This document shows positions 59,418 through 64,000 of a stretch of 64,000 nucleotides of DNA, piece by piece. Location: positions 62,001 through 126,000 of the forward strand of contig JAIQGF010000005.1 in NCBI GenBank assembly GCA_020072845.1. The letters run 5' to 3'. Source of the DNA: Terriglobia bacterium (GTDB taxonomy: Bacteria > Acidobacteriota > Terriglobia > Terriglobales > Acidobacteriaceae). The position numbers and the translations under genes are program-made. Below the pieces are notes generated by a model. The model saw nothing but the letters and a program-made list of their open reading frames with translations. It was not told where the DNA came from and made no database searches. Position 1 is the stretch's first letter; each line of letters opens with the position of its first letter.

Positions 59418-59711
59418 ATGAACATGGGGGCAACGGCAGTGTCGGGTGAGGCATGGCGCAAGGTCCGCGAATTCATCCATGGCTTTTACGCCTATGAGTT
59501 CGAGCGCCAGGCGCTGGAGATGCGCGGCGAGATCGAGTCGGTGTTCATGCTGCTCACCTTTGGAGACATGCTCGGCGTGCCCGTGCTGCCGCCGCTGTAC
59601 TCGCTGCGCCTGCTGCCCTACGTCGTTCCCCAGGTCGAGACCTGGAAGCGCCGTGTCATGCGCGAACGTGATTTGTCCGACAAGGAAGAGTTTCACTTGC
59701 ACGGAGTTTGA
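59418..59711 (+). CDS. Small protein, partner of Get3-like ATPase (paralogue 1)
   Basis: 97 residues, ATG at 59418; no ribosome-binding site is obvious. Residues about 40-72 are hydrophobic with prolines (MLLTFGD, then GVPVLPP and YSLRLLPYVVP). They are followed by TWKRRVMRERDLSD, a basic then acidic end. The same GD, GVPxLPP, YSLRLLPYVVP, TWKRR series occurs in the small protein at 59830, so the two are paralogues. N-terminal residues 1-38 are amphipathic helices. No known family is recognised. The segment could be a membrane-dipping or chaperone-bound hydrophobic element handled by the ATPases encoded downstream. Confidence 0.82.
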   Translation: MNMGATAVSGEAWRKVREFIHGFYAYEFERQALEMRGEIESVFMLLTFGDMLGVPVLPPLYSLRLLPYVVPQVETWKRRVMRERDLSDKEEFHLHGV

Positions 59712-59829: not shown

Positions 59830-60096
59830 ATGTCAGAAGAAGAAAAACAGGGTTTACTGAGCAAGTTAAAAGAGATCGCCTATGGCATGAGCACTCATGA
59901 CATGTCGCGCTACGCCATGCGCACGCGCGCCAGCATGGAGCACCTGTTCATCCTCATCACCATGGGCGACCTGATCGGCGTTCCCATCCTCCCGCCCTAC
60001 TACTCGCTGCGCCTGCTCCCCTACGTGGTCCCGAACATCGCCACCTGGAAGCGCCGCATGCTGCGGGAGAAGGACGTTTCCGACGCCATGTTCTAG
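59830..60096 (+). CDS. Small protein, partner of Get3-like ATPase (paralogue 2)
   Basis: 88 residues, ATG with GAGGAG 8 nt upstream. An N-terminal charged helix (SEEEKQGLLSKLKEIAYGMS) precedes a hydrophobic proline-containing segment (LFILITMGD, then GVPILPP and YSLRLLPYVVP) and TWKRRMLREKDVSD. It is clearly homologous to the gene at 59418 over the last 55 residues, with the strongest match in the hydrophobic segment. It precedes two paralogous ATPase genes, giving the order small-small-ATPase-ATPase. The conserved segment is a candidate ATPase-binding or client region. Confidence 0.85.
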   Translation: MSEEEKQGLLSKLKEIAYGMSTHDMSRYAMRTRASMEHLFILITMGDLIGVPILPPYYSLRLLPYVVPNIATWKRRMLREKDVSDAMF

Positions 60097-60221: not shown

Positions 60222-61211
60222 ATGTCATTCAAAGAAACCTTCGAAGCGAACAAGGAACGGCGCTACATCATGTTTGGCGGCAAAGGCGGCCTGGGCAAGA
60301 CCACCTTCTCCGCCGCCACCGCTTTCTGGCTGGCGCAGCAGGGCCACAAGGTGCTGGTCTTTTCCGTGGACCCGCAAGCCTCGCTCAGCGACATCTTCCA
60401 GAAGGATATTTTCGGCAAGGGCGCGGTCAAGATCATGGACAACCTCTACGCCCAGGAAATTGACGCCGACAGCCACATCAAGAACTACCAGAACGAGATT
60501 CGCAAGAAAATCCTCGACATGTACGGCCTGGACAAGGTGCCGGAAGAGATCGAGCACTACATCCAGGCGGCTTCGGCCGAGCCCGCCATGGAGGAATCGG
60601 CCATCTTCGACGCCGTGGTCGACATCGTAGTCGGCGGCGACTACGACTACTACATCTATGACCTGGTGCCCCTCGGCCACGCCCTCTATTACCTCTCCAT
60701 GGCCAAGGTCTATGACGAGTGGATCAACCGCATCACCAAGCTGCGCGAGGAAATGCGCCAGCACGAAGAGATGGTGGCGCGCATCAAGCGGCAGAAGACC
60801 ACCGAGGAAGATCTCGTCCTCACCGAGTTGCTGTACATCAAGAACCGCATCAACCAGTCCTCCGGCATCCTCACCGACCGGAAGAAGACCGCGTTCTTCT
60901 TCGTCGTCGTGCCCGAGGAGATGATCATCCTCGATACCGTGAAGGCGGCGCAGTTGTTTTCCAAGTTCGACGTGCCCATCGCCGGCTATGTCGTCAACCG
61001 CGTGCTGCCGCCGGAACTGGCGGGCCAGGACATTCCCGCCTACCTCAAGAATCGCCTCAAGATGCAGGGGCGCTACCTGGAAGAGATCGATAAGACCTTC
61101 GGCAAGCAGGTGATCAGCCGCGTGCCCGAGTTGGAACGCGATATCACCGGGCTGAAGATGATCGAAAAACTCGCCGGGCTGATGTACGGCAACGGAAACG
61201 GGAGGCACTGA
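60222..61211 (+). CDS. ArsA/Get3-like P-loop ATPase (subunit 1)
   Basis: 329 residues from ATG at 60222 (AAGGA 5 nt upstream). Deviant Walker A GGKGGLGKTT at 19-28, switch I SVDPQASLSD with Asp50 (equivalent to the catalytic Asp of Get3), and switch II region YDLVPLGHALYYL, where Get3 has DTAPTGHTLRLL; D147 is kept. The protein has no Cys, so the CxxC zinc motif of Get3 and the Cys triad of ArsA are absent. The insertion after switch II is predicted helical (DEWINRITKLREEMRQHEEM). It is likely half of a heterodimer with the next gene product, working on the small proteins or another client. Get3-type targeting ATPases deliver tail-anchored proteins in eukaryotes. Function here is inferred. 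Confidence 0.9.
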   Translation: MSFKETFEANKERRYIMFGGKGGLGKTTFSAATAFWLAQQGHKVLVFSVDPQASLSDIFQKDIFGKGAVKIMDNLYAQEIDADSHIKNYQNEIRKKILDMYGLDKVPEEIEHYIQAASAEPAMEESAIFDAVVDIVVGGDYDYYIYDLVPLGHALYYLSMAKVYDEWINRITKLREEMRQHEEMVARIKRQKTTEEDLVLTELLYIKNRINQSSGILTDRKKTAFFFVVVPEEMIILDTVKAAQLFSKFDVPIAGYVVNRVLPPELAGQDIPAYLKNRLKMQGRYLEEIDKTFGKQVISRVPELERDITGLKMIEKLAGLMYGNGNGRH

Positions 61212-61214
61212 GCC

Positions 61215-62222
61215 ATGCCGGAGATCAAGACTTCACTCACCGATTTCATGACCGAGCACCCGCAGATGAAGTTCAGCTTCTTCGGCGGCAAGGGCGGCGT
61301 GGGCAAGACCGTCATGGCCGGCGTTACCGCTCTGCACCTGGCCGGGCAGGGCAAGCGCGTCATGCTCGCCTCCACCAATCCGGTGCACTCGCTCAGCGGT
61401 TTGCTCGACCAGGACGTTTACGGCAAGCCTACGGCGGTCAAGAACGTTCCCAATCTCTGGGCCTACGAGATTGACACCAAGGAGACCATCGAGCGCTCCA
61501 AGCAGGACATCAAAACCAAGATCCGCTGGTTCCTGAAGTTCGCCGAAATCTCCACCCAGGCGGATATGTTCGTCGAGAGCGCCACCATGAACCCGGCCTT
61601 CGAAGAGTCGGCCATGTTCGAGAACATGGTGGACCTGATGTTCAAGAACGAGTACGACGCCTACGTCTTCGACACCGCGCCCACCGCCAACGCCCGCCGC
61701 CTGCTCGGCATGAGCAAGGTCTATTCGCTGTGGGTAAACAAGATGGTGAAGTCGCGCGAGGAGGCGCAGTCCCTCCGTGACCTGTTCTCCTTCACCAAGA
61801 AGAAAGAGGCCGACCCGCTGATGGACTACCTGCTCAGCTTCCGCGAGCGCATCGCGCACGCCCGCGATCTGCTTACCGATCCGGCCCTGACCGCGTTTTT
61901 CTTCGTCACCCTGCCGGAAGCGCTGCCCATCGCGGTCATCAAGCGCTTCATCAACTGGTTTCACGATTTCGGCATTCCCGTCGGCGGCGTCATCGTCAAC
62001 ATGCTCATCGACAAAGCGCAGGTGCGCACCGACTCGCCCGAGTTTGTGCGCAACCGCGTCGCCATGCAGGACAACTACATGGCCGAGATTTGGCGCGACT
62101 TCGACAACGTGCGCGCCGTCGTCCCCTTGTTCGATGATGAAGTCCGCGGCACCGCGGCGTTGAAGATGGTGGGAGACTACGCCTTTCCGCAACCGGTCGC
62201 GGCCGCCGGGACGGGCAAGTAA
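61215..62222 (+). CDS. ArsA/Get3-like P-loop ATPase (subunit 2)
   Basis: 335 residues, ATG, 3 bp after subunit 1. Deviant Walker A GGKGGVGKT at 24-32. Switch I is STNPVHSLSG: the catalytic Asp is replaced by Asn55. Switch II is DTAPTANARRLL near 153, close to the Get3 consensus DTAPTGHTLR but without GH. No Cys is present. Each subunit therefore departs from consensus at a different switch, which suggests a composite active site in a heterodimer. Helical insertion: VNKMVKSREEAQSLRDLF. It ends 37 bp before a strong hairpin at 62259. Confidence 0.9.
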   Translation: MPEIKTSLTDFMTEHPQMKFSFFGGKGGVGKTVMAGVTALHLAGQGKRVMLASTNPVHSLSGLLDQDVYGKPTAVKNVPNLWAYEIDTKETIERSKQDIKTKIRWFLKFAEISTQADMFVESATMNPAFEESAMFENMVDLMFKNEYDAYVFDTAPTANARRLLGMSKVYSLWVNKMVKSREEAQSLRDLFSFTKKKEADPLMDYLLSFRERIAHARDLLTDPALTAFFFVTLPEALPIAVIKRFINWFHDFGIPVGGVIVNMLIDKAQVRTDSPEFVRNRVAMQDNYMAEIWRDFDNVRAVVPLFDDEVRGTAALKMVGDYAFPQPVAAAGTGK

Positions 62223-62766
62223 GCTTCACGATCTTCTAGGAGTCTCATTCTTTCTTGCCCACCCTTCGGAAACCGCGAAGGGTGGGGCACCCACGTTTTG
62301 CTGGGGATTAAAGGACGCGCCACCCGCCTCGGGAGTCATGTCCTGACACACCGTCCGCAACGCGTCATTGCTTTCCGCCATCCTTGGAGAGGAAGACCCC
62401 CCGATAAGCACAAATCACTGGCAGCACCATGCCATCGTGTAGCTGTCAAGGTGGACGGGGTGCTGGGGCACATTTCGGGAATGGTCTGTTCCGATTCTAG
62501 AACAACCTTGCAAAATTTCTTTGTTTCGCGTTTCCGGAACTACGATCTGGTTGTTTCCTGCAGGCCGCGACTTCCGTTCGCGGCGACTTGACCGACGACG
62601 TACTCGCGGTGGAGGCGTGTTTCAGGGGTCGGCAAGTTCTCAGAAAACTATTTTCCGGACCTTGACCGCAAGGACTTGGGGGGCGGGGTTCGTTTTTCCC
62701 AAAATTCCGCCCGCTTGATTGATCTCTGGCCCAGGAAAAACTCAACCAACTCAGCAAGGAGGATCC
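62223..62766. other. Intergenic region before the cysteine-ladder gene
   Basis: 544 bp. It starts with a GC hairpin (62259-62287) and otherwise has no supported gene. A frame of 97 codons at 62298-62591 is present but has Arg/Ser/His-rich composition, no ribosome-binding site and no domain. AAGGAGG at 62756-62762 belongs to the next gene. A promoter for that gene was not identified. Confidence 0.6.
62259..62287 (+). terminator. Hairpin closing the ATPase cassette
   Basis: Perfect 11-bp stem CCCACCCTTCG/CGAAGGGTGGG (62259-62269 paired with 62277-62287) with a 7-nt loop. No T-tract follows. The same CCCACCCTTCG hairpin type is known to me as a frequent dispersed element in Acidobacteriota, so it could be either a terminator or a repeat. 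Confidence 0.55.
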
Positions 62767-64000
62767 ATGCCAGATCGAAGTCTTGAGCTTGATGTTTTCC
62801 GCGACCTCATGGAGGAAGCCGGCACCATCGGCCAGCTCGCCAAAGACAAGGAGGCATTCACCGCTGCCTATGAGGCGTTCCGCGCCGGTGACTCGGAGAA
62901 GTTCCATGCCATTCTGGAGCGGCTACGCCTGCGTCCGTACTGTCGCCTGATTTGTGAGTGGTTTCGCAGCAAGGAGTGCATCTTCCTCTGCCTCGAACTC
63001 TGCGGACCACCCAAGGTCATCGAGAAACCCAACCCGCACGACCTCGCTGATGCCATCGTGCGCATCACCGCCAACGAATCGCTGGTAAAGCAGCTCGTAC
63101 AAGTGCTGGAAAAGCGCGATCACAACGCCTTCCAGCGCATCGTCGCCGAGCACAAACTCGGTCTCCTTTGCCACTTCTTCTGTCACTGGCTCTGCGTGAT
63201 CCGTTACCGCCTGCTATGCCGATGGGTCTGCAGCCCCGAAAGAATTGAGAAGCCCGATCTTGCCGGCGAACTCAAGGCTGCCGGGCTCGCCCTCCGGCAA
63301 TTACTCGAACACAAACAGGCCTTTGACCAGGCGGTGGCCGCCTCTGATGCCGGGGACTCCGCCAAGCTTGGCTCGGCTATTCAGGCTGCCGACCTGCTTT
63401 CCCGGTGCCGTTTCATTTGCGAGTGGTTCTGCAGTTGGCGTTGCACGCTGGTCTGCCTGAACCTTTGCCGGCAGTATCCGGTCCGGGAGAGCACGAACCA
63501 CATAGAGGAAGCATTAGCATTTGCCAAAGCGCTGCAGCCGCTCCTCCAGAACCTCACCCAGTTCGAGCGTTTGAGCGTGGCCGTCGGCTCGGGAGACACC
63601 AAAGCCTATGATGCCATTCTGAAGGAGTTCAAGCTGCCGCATTTCTGCATTCAGCTATGCCACTGGGTCTGCGGATTGCGCTGCCGCCGCTTCTGTAACC
63701 TCGCATGCCCGCCGCAGCAGTTGTATCCCTGGTTCACCTCCATCGGGCGTTACGACTATCTCACCGACATTCACAGTCCGCACGGCCTAGGCGTAGACGG
63801 GCTGACTAATGACGGTCGCGCCTTCTACTCCAACCTGCGCCTGAATGGCATTCTCTCGCAAACGCTGGGTGGCCAGCAGTTGGAGTATCGCTTCGAAACC
63901 CGTCCCACGGACAACGATGGCAATCCCACCGGCCCCTGGTCACCCGTACTGCCCGCCCAGATCGCCCGTACCGAAATTGGGCATTGGGAACGCTTCAAGC
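62767..64000 (+). CDS. Cysteine-ladder modular protein (N-terminal part), unknown family
   Basis: Open from ATG at 62767 (AAGGAGG 4 nt upstream) to the right edge, 411 residues seen. Four modules of 76-80 residues. Each has a helical front (for example FTAAYEAFRAGDSEKFHAIL; FDQAVAASDAGDSAKLGSAI) and then cysteines every fourth residue. The ladders are C59, C63, (R67), C71, C75, C79; C135, C139, C143, (Y147), C151, C155; C214 to C234, six in a row; C294 to C314, six in a row. CEWF and CHWVC recur. After module 4 comes a Cys-free, strand-rich domain (YPWFTSIGRYDYL, LNGILSQTLGGQQLEYRFET). No signal peptide. Possible roles: metal-cluster scaffold or disulfide-stabilised stalk. I do not recognise the family. 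Confidence 0.9.
   Translation, partial: MPDRSLELDVFRDLMEEAGTIGQLAKDKEAFTAAYEAFRAGDSEKFHAILERLRLRPYCRLICEWFRSKECIFLCLELCGPPKVIEKPNPHDLADAIVRITANESLVKQLVQVLEKRDHNAFQRIVAEHKLGLLCHFFCHWLCVIRYRLLCRWVCSPERIEKPDLAGELKAAGLALRQLLEHKQAFDQAVAASDAGDSAKLGSAIQAADLLSRCRFICEWFCSWRCTLVCLNLCRQYPVRESTNHIEEALAFAKALQPLLQNLTQFERLSVAVGSGDTKAYDAILKEFKLPHFCIQLCHWVCGLRCRRFCNLACPPQQLYPWFTSIGRYDYLTDIHSPHGLGVDGLTNDGRAFYSNLRLNGILSQTLGGQQLEYRFETRPTDNDGNPTGPWSPVLPAQIARTEIGHWERFK

Follow-up and report, generated by a model that had tools for sequence, protein, structure and literature searches.

Two-rung alpha-hairpinins and small Tims are the closest precedent for the cysteine-ladder protein described here. In the account of the alpha-hairpinins given in PMC7191063, CX3C motifs lie on two antiparallel helices and disulfides join Cys1 to Cys4 and Cys2 to Cys3, while the small Tim proteins are presented in PMC3759932 as helix-loop-helix proteins with twin CX3C motifs and an inner and an outer disulfide, which can bind Zn when reduced. 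Cysteines are also carried by helical bundles in the Csp proteins, described as tetramers of Cys-lined four-helix bundles with His/Met at the open end; among them, a monomer of the cytosolic Csp3 takes as many as 20 Cu(I) into its four-helix bundle, bound for the most part by Cys (PMC7558416). A spacing of one cysteine at every fourth residue is further described for the Cys-rich domains of minicollagens (CXXXCXXXCXXXCXXXCC; PMC4195985).

Gene, protein and ladder pattern

The window analysed here, a whole stretch of 64,000 nucleotides from a Terriglobia bacterium, belongs to a genome of 4.23 Mb (27 contigs, 100% complete). The gene of the cysteine-ladder protein (residues 1–411 of 663; 62767..64000) runs off the right edge of the window, with all of its features on the plus strand. 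Its ATG at 62767 is preceded at a distance of 4 bases by a strong and clear ribosome-binding site, aaggagg, read from the sequence (62756..62762), and its stop is reached 758 bases outside the window (L002:9758, or 64758 in the numbering of the window). The product consists of four helical modules followed by a strand-rich C-terminal part. Each module contains four helices: module 1 (residues 4–79; 62776..63003) carries the ladder C59 C63 R67 C71 C75 C79 (62941–63003), module 2 (residues 90–155; 63034..63231) the ladder C135 C139 C143 Y147 C151 C155 (63169–63231), module 3 (residues 165–234; 63259..63468) the ladder C214 C218 C222 C226 C230 C234 (63406–63468), and module 4 (residues 245–314; 63499..63708) the ladder C294 C298 C302 C306 C310 C314 (63646–63708). 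The start of the C-terminal part (residues 317–411 of 317–663; 63715..64000) lies within the window, with strands assigned from the model of a relative, L004, that is of low confidence, and its four further cysteines (520, 564, 632 and 661) are all beyond the window.

The first ladder positions occur at residues 59, 135, 214 and 294 (spacing of 76, 79 and 80), and the occupancy of modules 1–4 is CCRCCC, CCCYCC, CCCCCC and CCCCCC, with R67 and Y147 as the only substitutions. Within residues 1–330, all of the cysteines (22/22) are on ladder positions, and a lag of 4 between cysteines occurs 16 times, with no occurrence of lags 1–3 or 5–7. When the Cys positions of the first 330 residues were shuffled 200,000 times, any 6-of-6 window was present in three shuffles and two or more windows holding at least five Cys in 50 shuffles, compared to eight such windows, partly overlapping, in the real protein. 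Residue positions and shuffling bear out the first-pass annotation of the window, which had described i+4 Cys ladders in four modules with exceptions at R67 and Y147. It had also anticipated a strand-rich continuation past the window, and the sequence obtained beyond 64000 extends the protein to residue 663, and its statement that there is no signal peptide agrees with the hydropathy of 19-residue stretches, by which none is apparent in the window protein (top mean of 0.18 in the first 60 residues). By the same measure a hydrophobic N-terminal signal was found in none of the 12 members of the family (highest 19-residue mean, 1.14, in the first 60 residues).

The view of the same annotation that no known family has this pattern held in the searches made. 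Nine of the 12 members scanned against Pfam at E up to 1 matched no named family, and both this search and that of NCBIfam (own protein and 14 module pairs, E up to 1) gave weak matches only; a profile search of PDB sequences at E up to 10 returned no named family and no Csp-type match. Among the open-licence papers listed, no publication on the ladder family was recognised by title or abstract start. Several specific candidates were considered and set aside. A Nif11-like leader had no Pfam match in nine of the 12 members, the effector-associated domain EAD2 gave one weak match under its cut-off (L006 only, E 0.02), and for a role in anti-phage defence PADLOC had no matches to the own protein or that of L014. 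The sole PADLOC match, to BovA at E 2e-7 and covering a portion of that model, came from a CHAT neighbour in L015. An origin in phages or plasmids was likewise rejected, as the window protein (P0001) and the L030 protein had no match in phages or plasmids; no match to either was confirmed in viral contigs, and no PHROG match was found in four members scanned.

Relatives and the paired loss of cysteines

Using six exact peptide patterns scanned over the genome contigs of 84,980 species, three relatives were found: L004, the nearest, from a Terriglobia MAG (69%), L005 from a Thermoleophilaceae MAG (40%) and L006 from an Actinomycetales MAG (33% over 9–333). Profile searches added members in G181, G933, G903, G1045, G1209, G1323, G1370 and G1408, and the resulting set of 12 proteins (the window protein and 11 relatives; 447–787 residues) comes from the phylum of the window (Acidobacteria) and from the Actinobacteria. 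Seven of the 12 possess four modules and five possess two (L014, L019, L030, L031 and L033); these two-module proteins show that one module pair constitutes a complete unit. The family is rare. The ladder protein occurred in one of 61 genomes of close relatives of the host (its own only; single-sequence search), 2/396 genomes of the phylum of the window (second draw, 1/148), 4/299 of its class and 3/193 of the class of G181, and in 1/396 and 1/149 genomes of the phylum of the actinobacterial relatives and 2/199 and 2/148 of their classes, all of these counts being lower bounds from overlapping draws that include query genomes where drawn and from a first look that scores only some candidates per genome.

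All modules (38/38) share a single register, in which their first ladder positions occupy the same alignment column. Variable cysteine positions among homologues, named in the first-pass annotation as an outcome that would speak against its reading, were not what was found: Cys is present at 210 of the 228 ladder positions of the 12 proteins. Mean module identity within one protein, with Cys excluded, was 0.258 for odd-odd, 0.241 for even-even and 0.195 for odd-even comparisons, with overlapping ranges, a modest sign that the repeating unit may be the module pair.

Eleven of the 19 module pairs in the 12 proteins are complete and eight have missing Cys, 18 in total. In each of the eight lossy pairs a missing Cys at position i of the first module is accompanied by a missing Cys at position 7−i of the second, and a parallel rule fits none of them (0/8). 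The loss is 3/4 in the own protein, L004, L005 and L032, 6/1 in L006 and L033, 5/2 in L008, and 1/6 together with 5/2 in L013; a same-helix couple of neighbouring CxxxC cysteines is never lost together. The chance of the antiparallel rule is 9.3e-4 with four independent events (3/4, 6/1, 5/2 and the 1/6 of L013) and 2.4e-7 if all eight losses are independent, where some losses are common by descent and the independent events are few, four to five. The rule was first noticed among eight proteins, six with losses, and in the four proteins found afterwards the losses of L032 and L033 both obey it, both repeating losses seen earlier. In three modules (the first of L006, the first of L033 and the second of L013) a blind window scan scored two registers equally and gave the one not used here; the register used in these modules, on which the 7−i rule there depends, is that of the multiple alignments, and the alignment of all modules confirms it (38/38).

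Because the losses are cross-module pairs and never take a same-helix CxxxC couple, the working unit would be two Cys from two helices, and the cysteines seem to work in twos across the antiparallel ladder helices of modules 1:2. In the seven proteins that have modules 3 and 4 the ladders of both are invariant, so the same antiparallel two-Cys pairing of modules 3:4 is presumed by homology. L006 and L032 each have two off-ladder cysteines (alignment columns 202 and 318), neither of which is present in the other five four-module proteins, and their joint presence is as a gained disulfide would behave. L032 has a lone further off-ladder Cys, C118, that lacks an evident partner, and the number of C-terminal cysteines is odd in six members. 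An extra Cys pair was observed in L008 and L013 (residue 314 and residues 354/358, within PPGC and LCKQH), absent from those columns in the other four-module proteins compared. Cross-helix pairing of the ladder cysteines appears well supported. As an unpaired Cys is a liability, we infer that the pairwise loss and gain may be the trace of selection on disulfides.

The first-pass annotation had judged disulfides less likely and had favoured a chain of metal sites or clusters, which may be put as a row of four-Cys Fe-S or Zn sites along each ladder. Regular Cys spacing and the lack of an apparent signal peptide are in keeping with such a row, and some adjacent rung couples are intact in every protein, giving room for a few sites. 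Against this, each loss removes two Cys from two helices and not four, L013 keeps rung 6/1 with no neighbouring rung after its loss of 5/2, and pair 1 of the own protein keeps five rungs, an odd number. A four-Cys chain is considered very improbable, and neither judgement of the annotation is supported, as Cys losses are paired across modules in 8/8 lossy pairs, which is what disulfides predict.

Helical model, predicted rungs and gene neighbourhoods

An AlphaFold2 model of residues 1–320, based on four sequences (own and three relatives), was confident (pLDDT 91.7, pTM 0.89) and consists of four repeats of four helices with the ladder on the last helix of each (56–79, 132–155, 211–233 and 291–313); in modules 3 and 4 the sixth Cys falls one residue beyond the helix end. 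In an idealised Crick coil model that tests Cb distances only, six antiparallel Cb-Cb pairs were placed in disulfide range without backbone clash with a right-handed wrap only, at 3.9–4.0 residues per turn and a steep tilt of about 20–40 degrees. No sampled arrangement worked at ≤3.8 residues per turn or with straight helices, and the model works equally for the longer Cys-Cu-Cys spacing of two-Cys Cu(I) sites. Foldseek of the helical part returned no matches at E 0.001 against the PDB, an absence that does not prove a new fold, and none at E 0.001 in a viral structure library; in a second PDB fold look the best result was a Z of 3.0 over 173 residues. The C-terminal part is strand-rich in an AlphaFold model of L004 (pLDDT <50 over most of its length) and occurs as two types, that of the four-module proteins, which has diverged in L006 and L032, and that of the two-module proteins. 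The two-module type had a weak likeness to PDB entry 2yn3 (E 0.012), which is titled a putative inner membrane protein and which we take to be an Ig-repeat adhesin, and the four-module type had no match. Pfam gave no match for the C-terminal part of the own protein or three two-module C-termini, and a search of six genomes with the two-module C-terminal profile gave no convincing further copies (one extra match, E 0.013).

With moderate confidence, we consider these proteins to be a new family of paired four-helix modules with antiparallel Cys rungs, probably disulfides. The building unit would be a pair of four-helix modules, each with cysteines at i, i+4 … i+20 along its final helix, and in pairs 1:2 and 3:4 the ladder helices would run antiparallel, such that Cys k meets Cys 7−k in up to six rungs. 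The predicted rungs are C59-C155, C63-C151, C71-C143, C75-C139 and C79-C135 in pair 1, where R67/Y147 would be a lost rung, and C214-C314, C218-C310, C222-C306, C226-C302, C230-C298 and C234-C294 in pair 2. The paired cysteines would be in contact, and as disulfides rather than Cu(I) bridges; these would form on meeting an oxidising environment and result in a helical clamp of high stability, to which the strand-rich, perhaps Ig-like, C-terminal part is attached. A structural or surface role of the protein may be envisaged. The bacterial cytosol is normally reducing, and because none of the 12 members shows a signal by hydropathy, the site of oxidation is the weak point of the disulfide reading. 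A six-rung right-handed zipper, present once or twice per chain and in two phyla, with no known fold found and no apparent signal peptide, might tentatively point to an unrecognised export route or oxidising compartment, a suggestion that we hold to be possible but doubtful.

There was no operon common to the members among 36 distinct neighbours scanned in the 12 loci, a selection of the genes present and some of them mere open frames. Two consecutive ArsA/GET3/TRC40-type ATPases (TIGR00345) occur in the window (60222–61208 and 61215–62222), preceded by a pair of small open frames that have no Pfam match (59418–59708 and 59830–60093). A gap of 544 bases separates the second ATPase gene from the ladder gene, which stands by itself. 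These ATPases were rejected for now as a partner, none occurring among four scanned neighbours of the nearest relative (L004/L016, G446). A sigma-70-like gene adjoins the ladder gene in L015 (G181; E 2.8e-5 and 4.6e-5, narrowly short of the cut-offs) and in L030 (G1209; region 4 above its cut-off), and the adjoining gene of L032 is sigma-like by eye and has no such Pfam match. At both L015:8900-15927 and L032:5833-12770, which represent two families within the phylum of the window, the ladder gene and the sigma-like gene are divergent and a TPR-CHAT gene follows at some distance downstream. BTAD regulators are located <50 bp from the ladder gene in two actinobacterial classes and in different orientations (L005:498-1274 and L033:3674-4483). 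Other neighbours occur in single loci. The G1370 ladder gene is followed immediately by a DUF1360-like gene (L032:5499-5831, minus strand; E 0.00036, with a bit score narrowly below the cut-off). A B12-binding radical SAM gene (L031:9398-10990, minus strand) is located at a distance of about 2.6 kb from the two-module ladder gene of L031. At L033:411-2224 (minus strand) an MbnB/TglH/ChrH-type enzyme and a small neighbour without Pfam match are divergent from a two-module gene.

Three further alternatives were considered. The ladders could be a cytosolic, Csp-like Cu(I) store in which paired thiolates of two antiparallel helices hold a buried row of Cu(I). Such a store would need no signal peptide, none being apparent here as in cytosolic Csp3, two-Cys sites likewise predict pairwise loss, and the coil model permits their spacing. 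The MbnB/TglH/ChrH-type gene, of a Pfam family that presumably belongs to the MNIO class, is divergent from the L033 ladder gene at about 80 bp, and some peptides made by this enzyme class are described as chelating copper (PMC12452194). However, Pfam (9/12 members, E up to 1) and PDB sequences gave no Csp-type match, none of the 36 scanned neighbours apart from the MbnB-type gene matches a recognised copper transporter, chaperone or regulator family, the same-helix CxxxC couple is never lost, and two off-ladder Cys were gained jointly in two proteins. A Cu(I) store is held to be unlikely; in terms of fit, disulfides rank first and two-Cys Cu(I) sites second, and four-Cys sites fit less well.

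The protein could also be a reversible thiol switch or redox reservoir, flexible when reduced in the cytosol and zipped under oxidative stress, which would be consistent with pairing without an apparent export signal and with the regulator genes that adjoin several members (sigma-70-like in L015 and L030; BTAD in L005 and L033). This is rated as quite improbable, as the 36 scanned neighbours include no redox enzyme family except for an aldo/keto reductase in L033 and the C-terminal part looks structural. Lastly, an enzyme could act on the ladders and modify their cysteines, by a RiPP-like thioether or in another way. Of 14 module pairs, two gave weak matches to TIGR04117 (best E 0.58), two to TIGR04118 (best E 0.44) and two to TIGR04449, the halocin C8 domain (best E 0.012), and candidate enzymes are the B12-binding radical SAM gene near the L031 gene and the MbnB/TglH/ChrH-type gene beside that of L033. 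The weak TIGR matches may reflect Cys content alone, each candidate enzyme is found in one of the 12 loci among the 36 neighbours scanned, with the radical SAM gene not adjacent, and the ladders are in conserved folded modules and not in a cleavable core, and we regard modification as the least probable of all.

Comparison with known systems

If the disulfide pairing set out above is true, the 20–22 ladder Cys of the four-module members, in proteins without an apparent signal peptide, imply either an unrecognised oxidation route or thiols kept reduced for paired metal. One disulfide map or metal measurement would separate both options, with the predicted bonds available residue by residue.

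The known systems differ from the ladder proteins to varying degrees. The Cxxx-repeat radical-SAM targets (TIGR04117 and TIGR04118), known from their family names, also possess Cys-Xaa-Xaa-Xaa repeats, but the Cxxx-repeat RiPP model was not significantly matched (E 0.44–0.58). Minicollagens are cnidarian and have terminal domains ending in CC together with collagen repeats, whereas no ladder ends in CC and no Gly-X-Y repeat was seen by eye in the translations. The likeness to Csp1 and Csp3, as these are described, lies in the many Cys on bundle helices and, for Csp3, in the lack of an export signal. Unlike Csp, the losses of the ladder proteins pair across modules. No sequence match of Csp type was found in Pfam (9/12), in NCBIfam (own protein and 14 pairs) or among PDB chains in the profile search; the PDB fold searches also reported none, though a four-helix bundle with a Cys-lined core might be present nonetheless.

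Small Tims have two rungs and are eukaryotic and Mia40-dependent, unlike the ladder proteins, and their Pfam family had no match at E up to 1 in nine of the 12 members scanned; the alpha-hairpinin Pfam family likewise had none in 9/12. An alpha-hairpinin, as described, is a short plant peptide with one loop and two CX3C motifs forming two rungs, compared to up to six rungs between helices about 55–60 residues apart in 66–76-residue four-helix modules. The ladder helices are also separated by three other helices, in proteins of 447–787 residues, a layout different from that of the alpha-hairpinins. The first-with-last sum rule described for alpha-hairpinins may be shared, as the losses of 8/8 lossy pairs follow it and the bonds here are predicted. 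If true, the cysteine ladder would be nature's extension of the twin-CX3C helix clasp to six rungs, threefold the number in alpha-hairpinins and small Tims, and would offer a ready-made template for designing helical proteins with cross-links.
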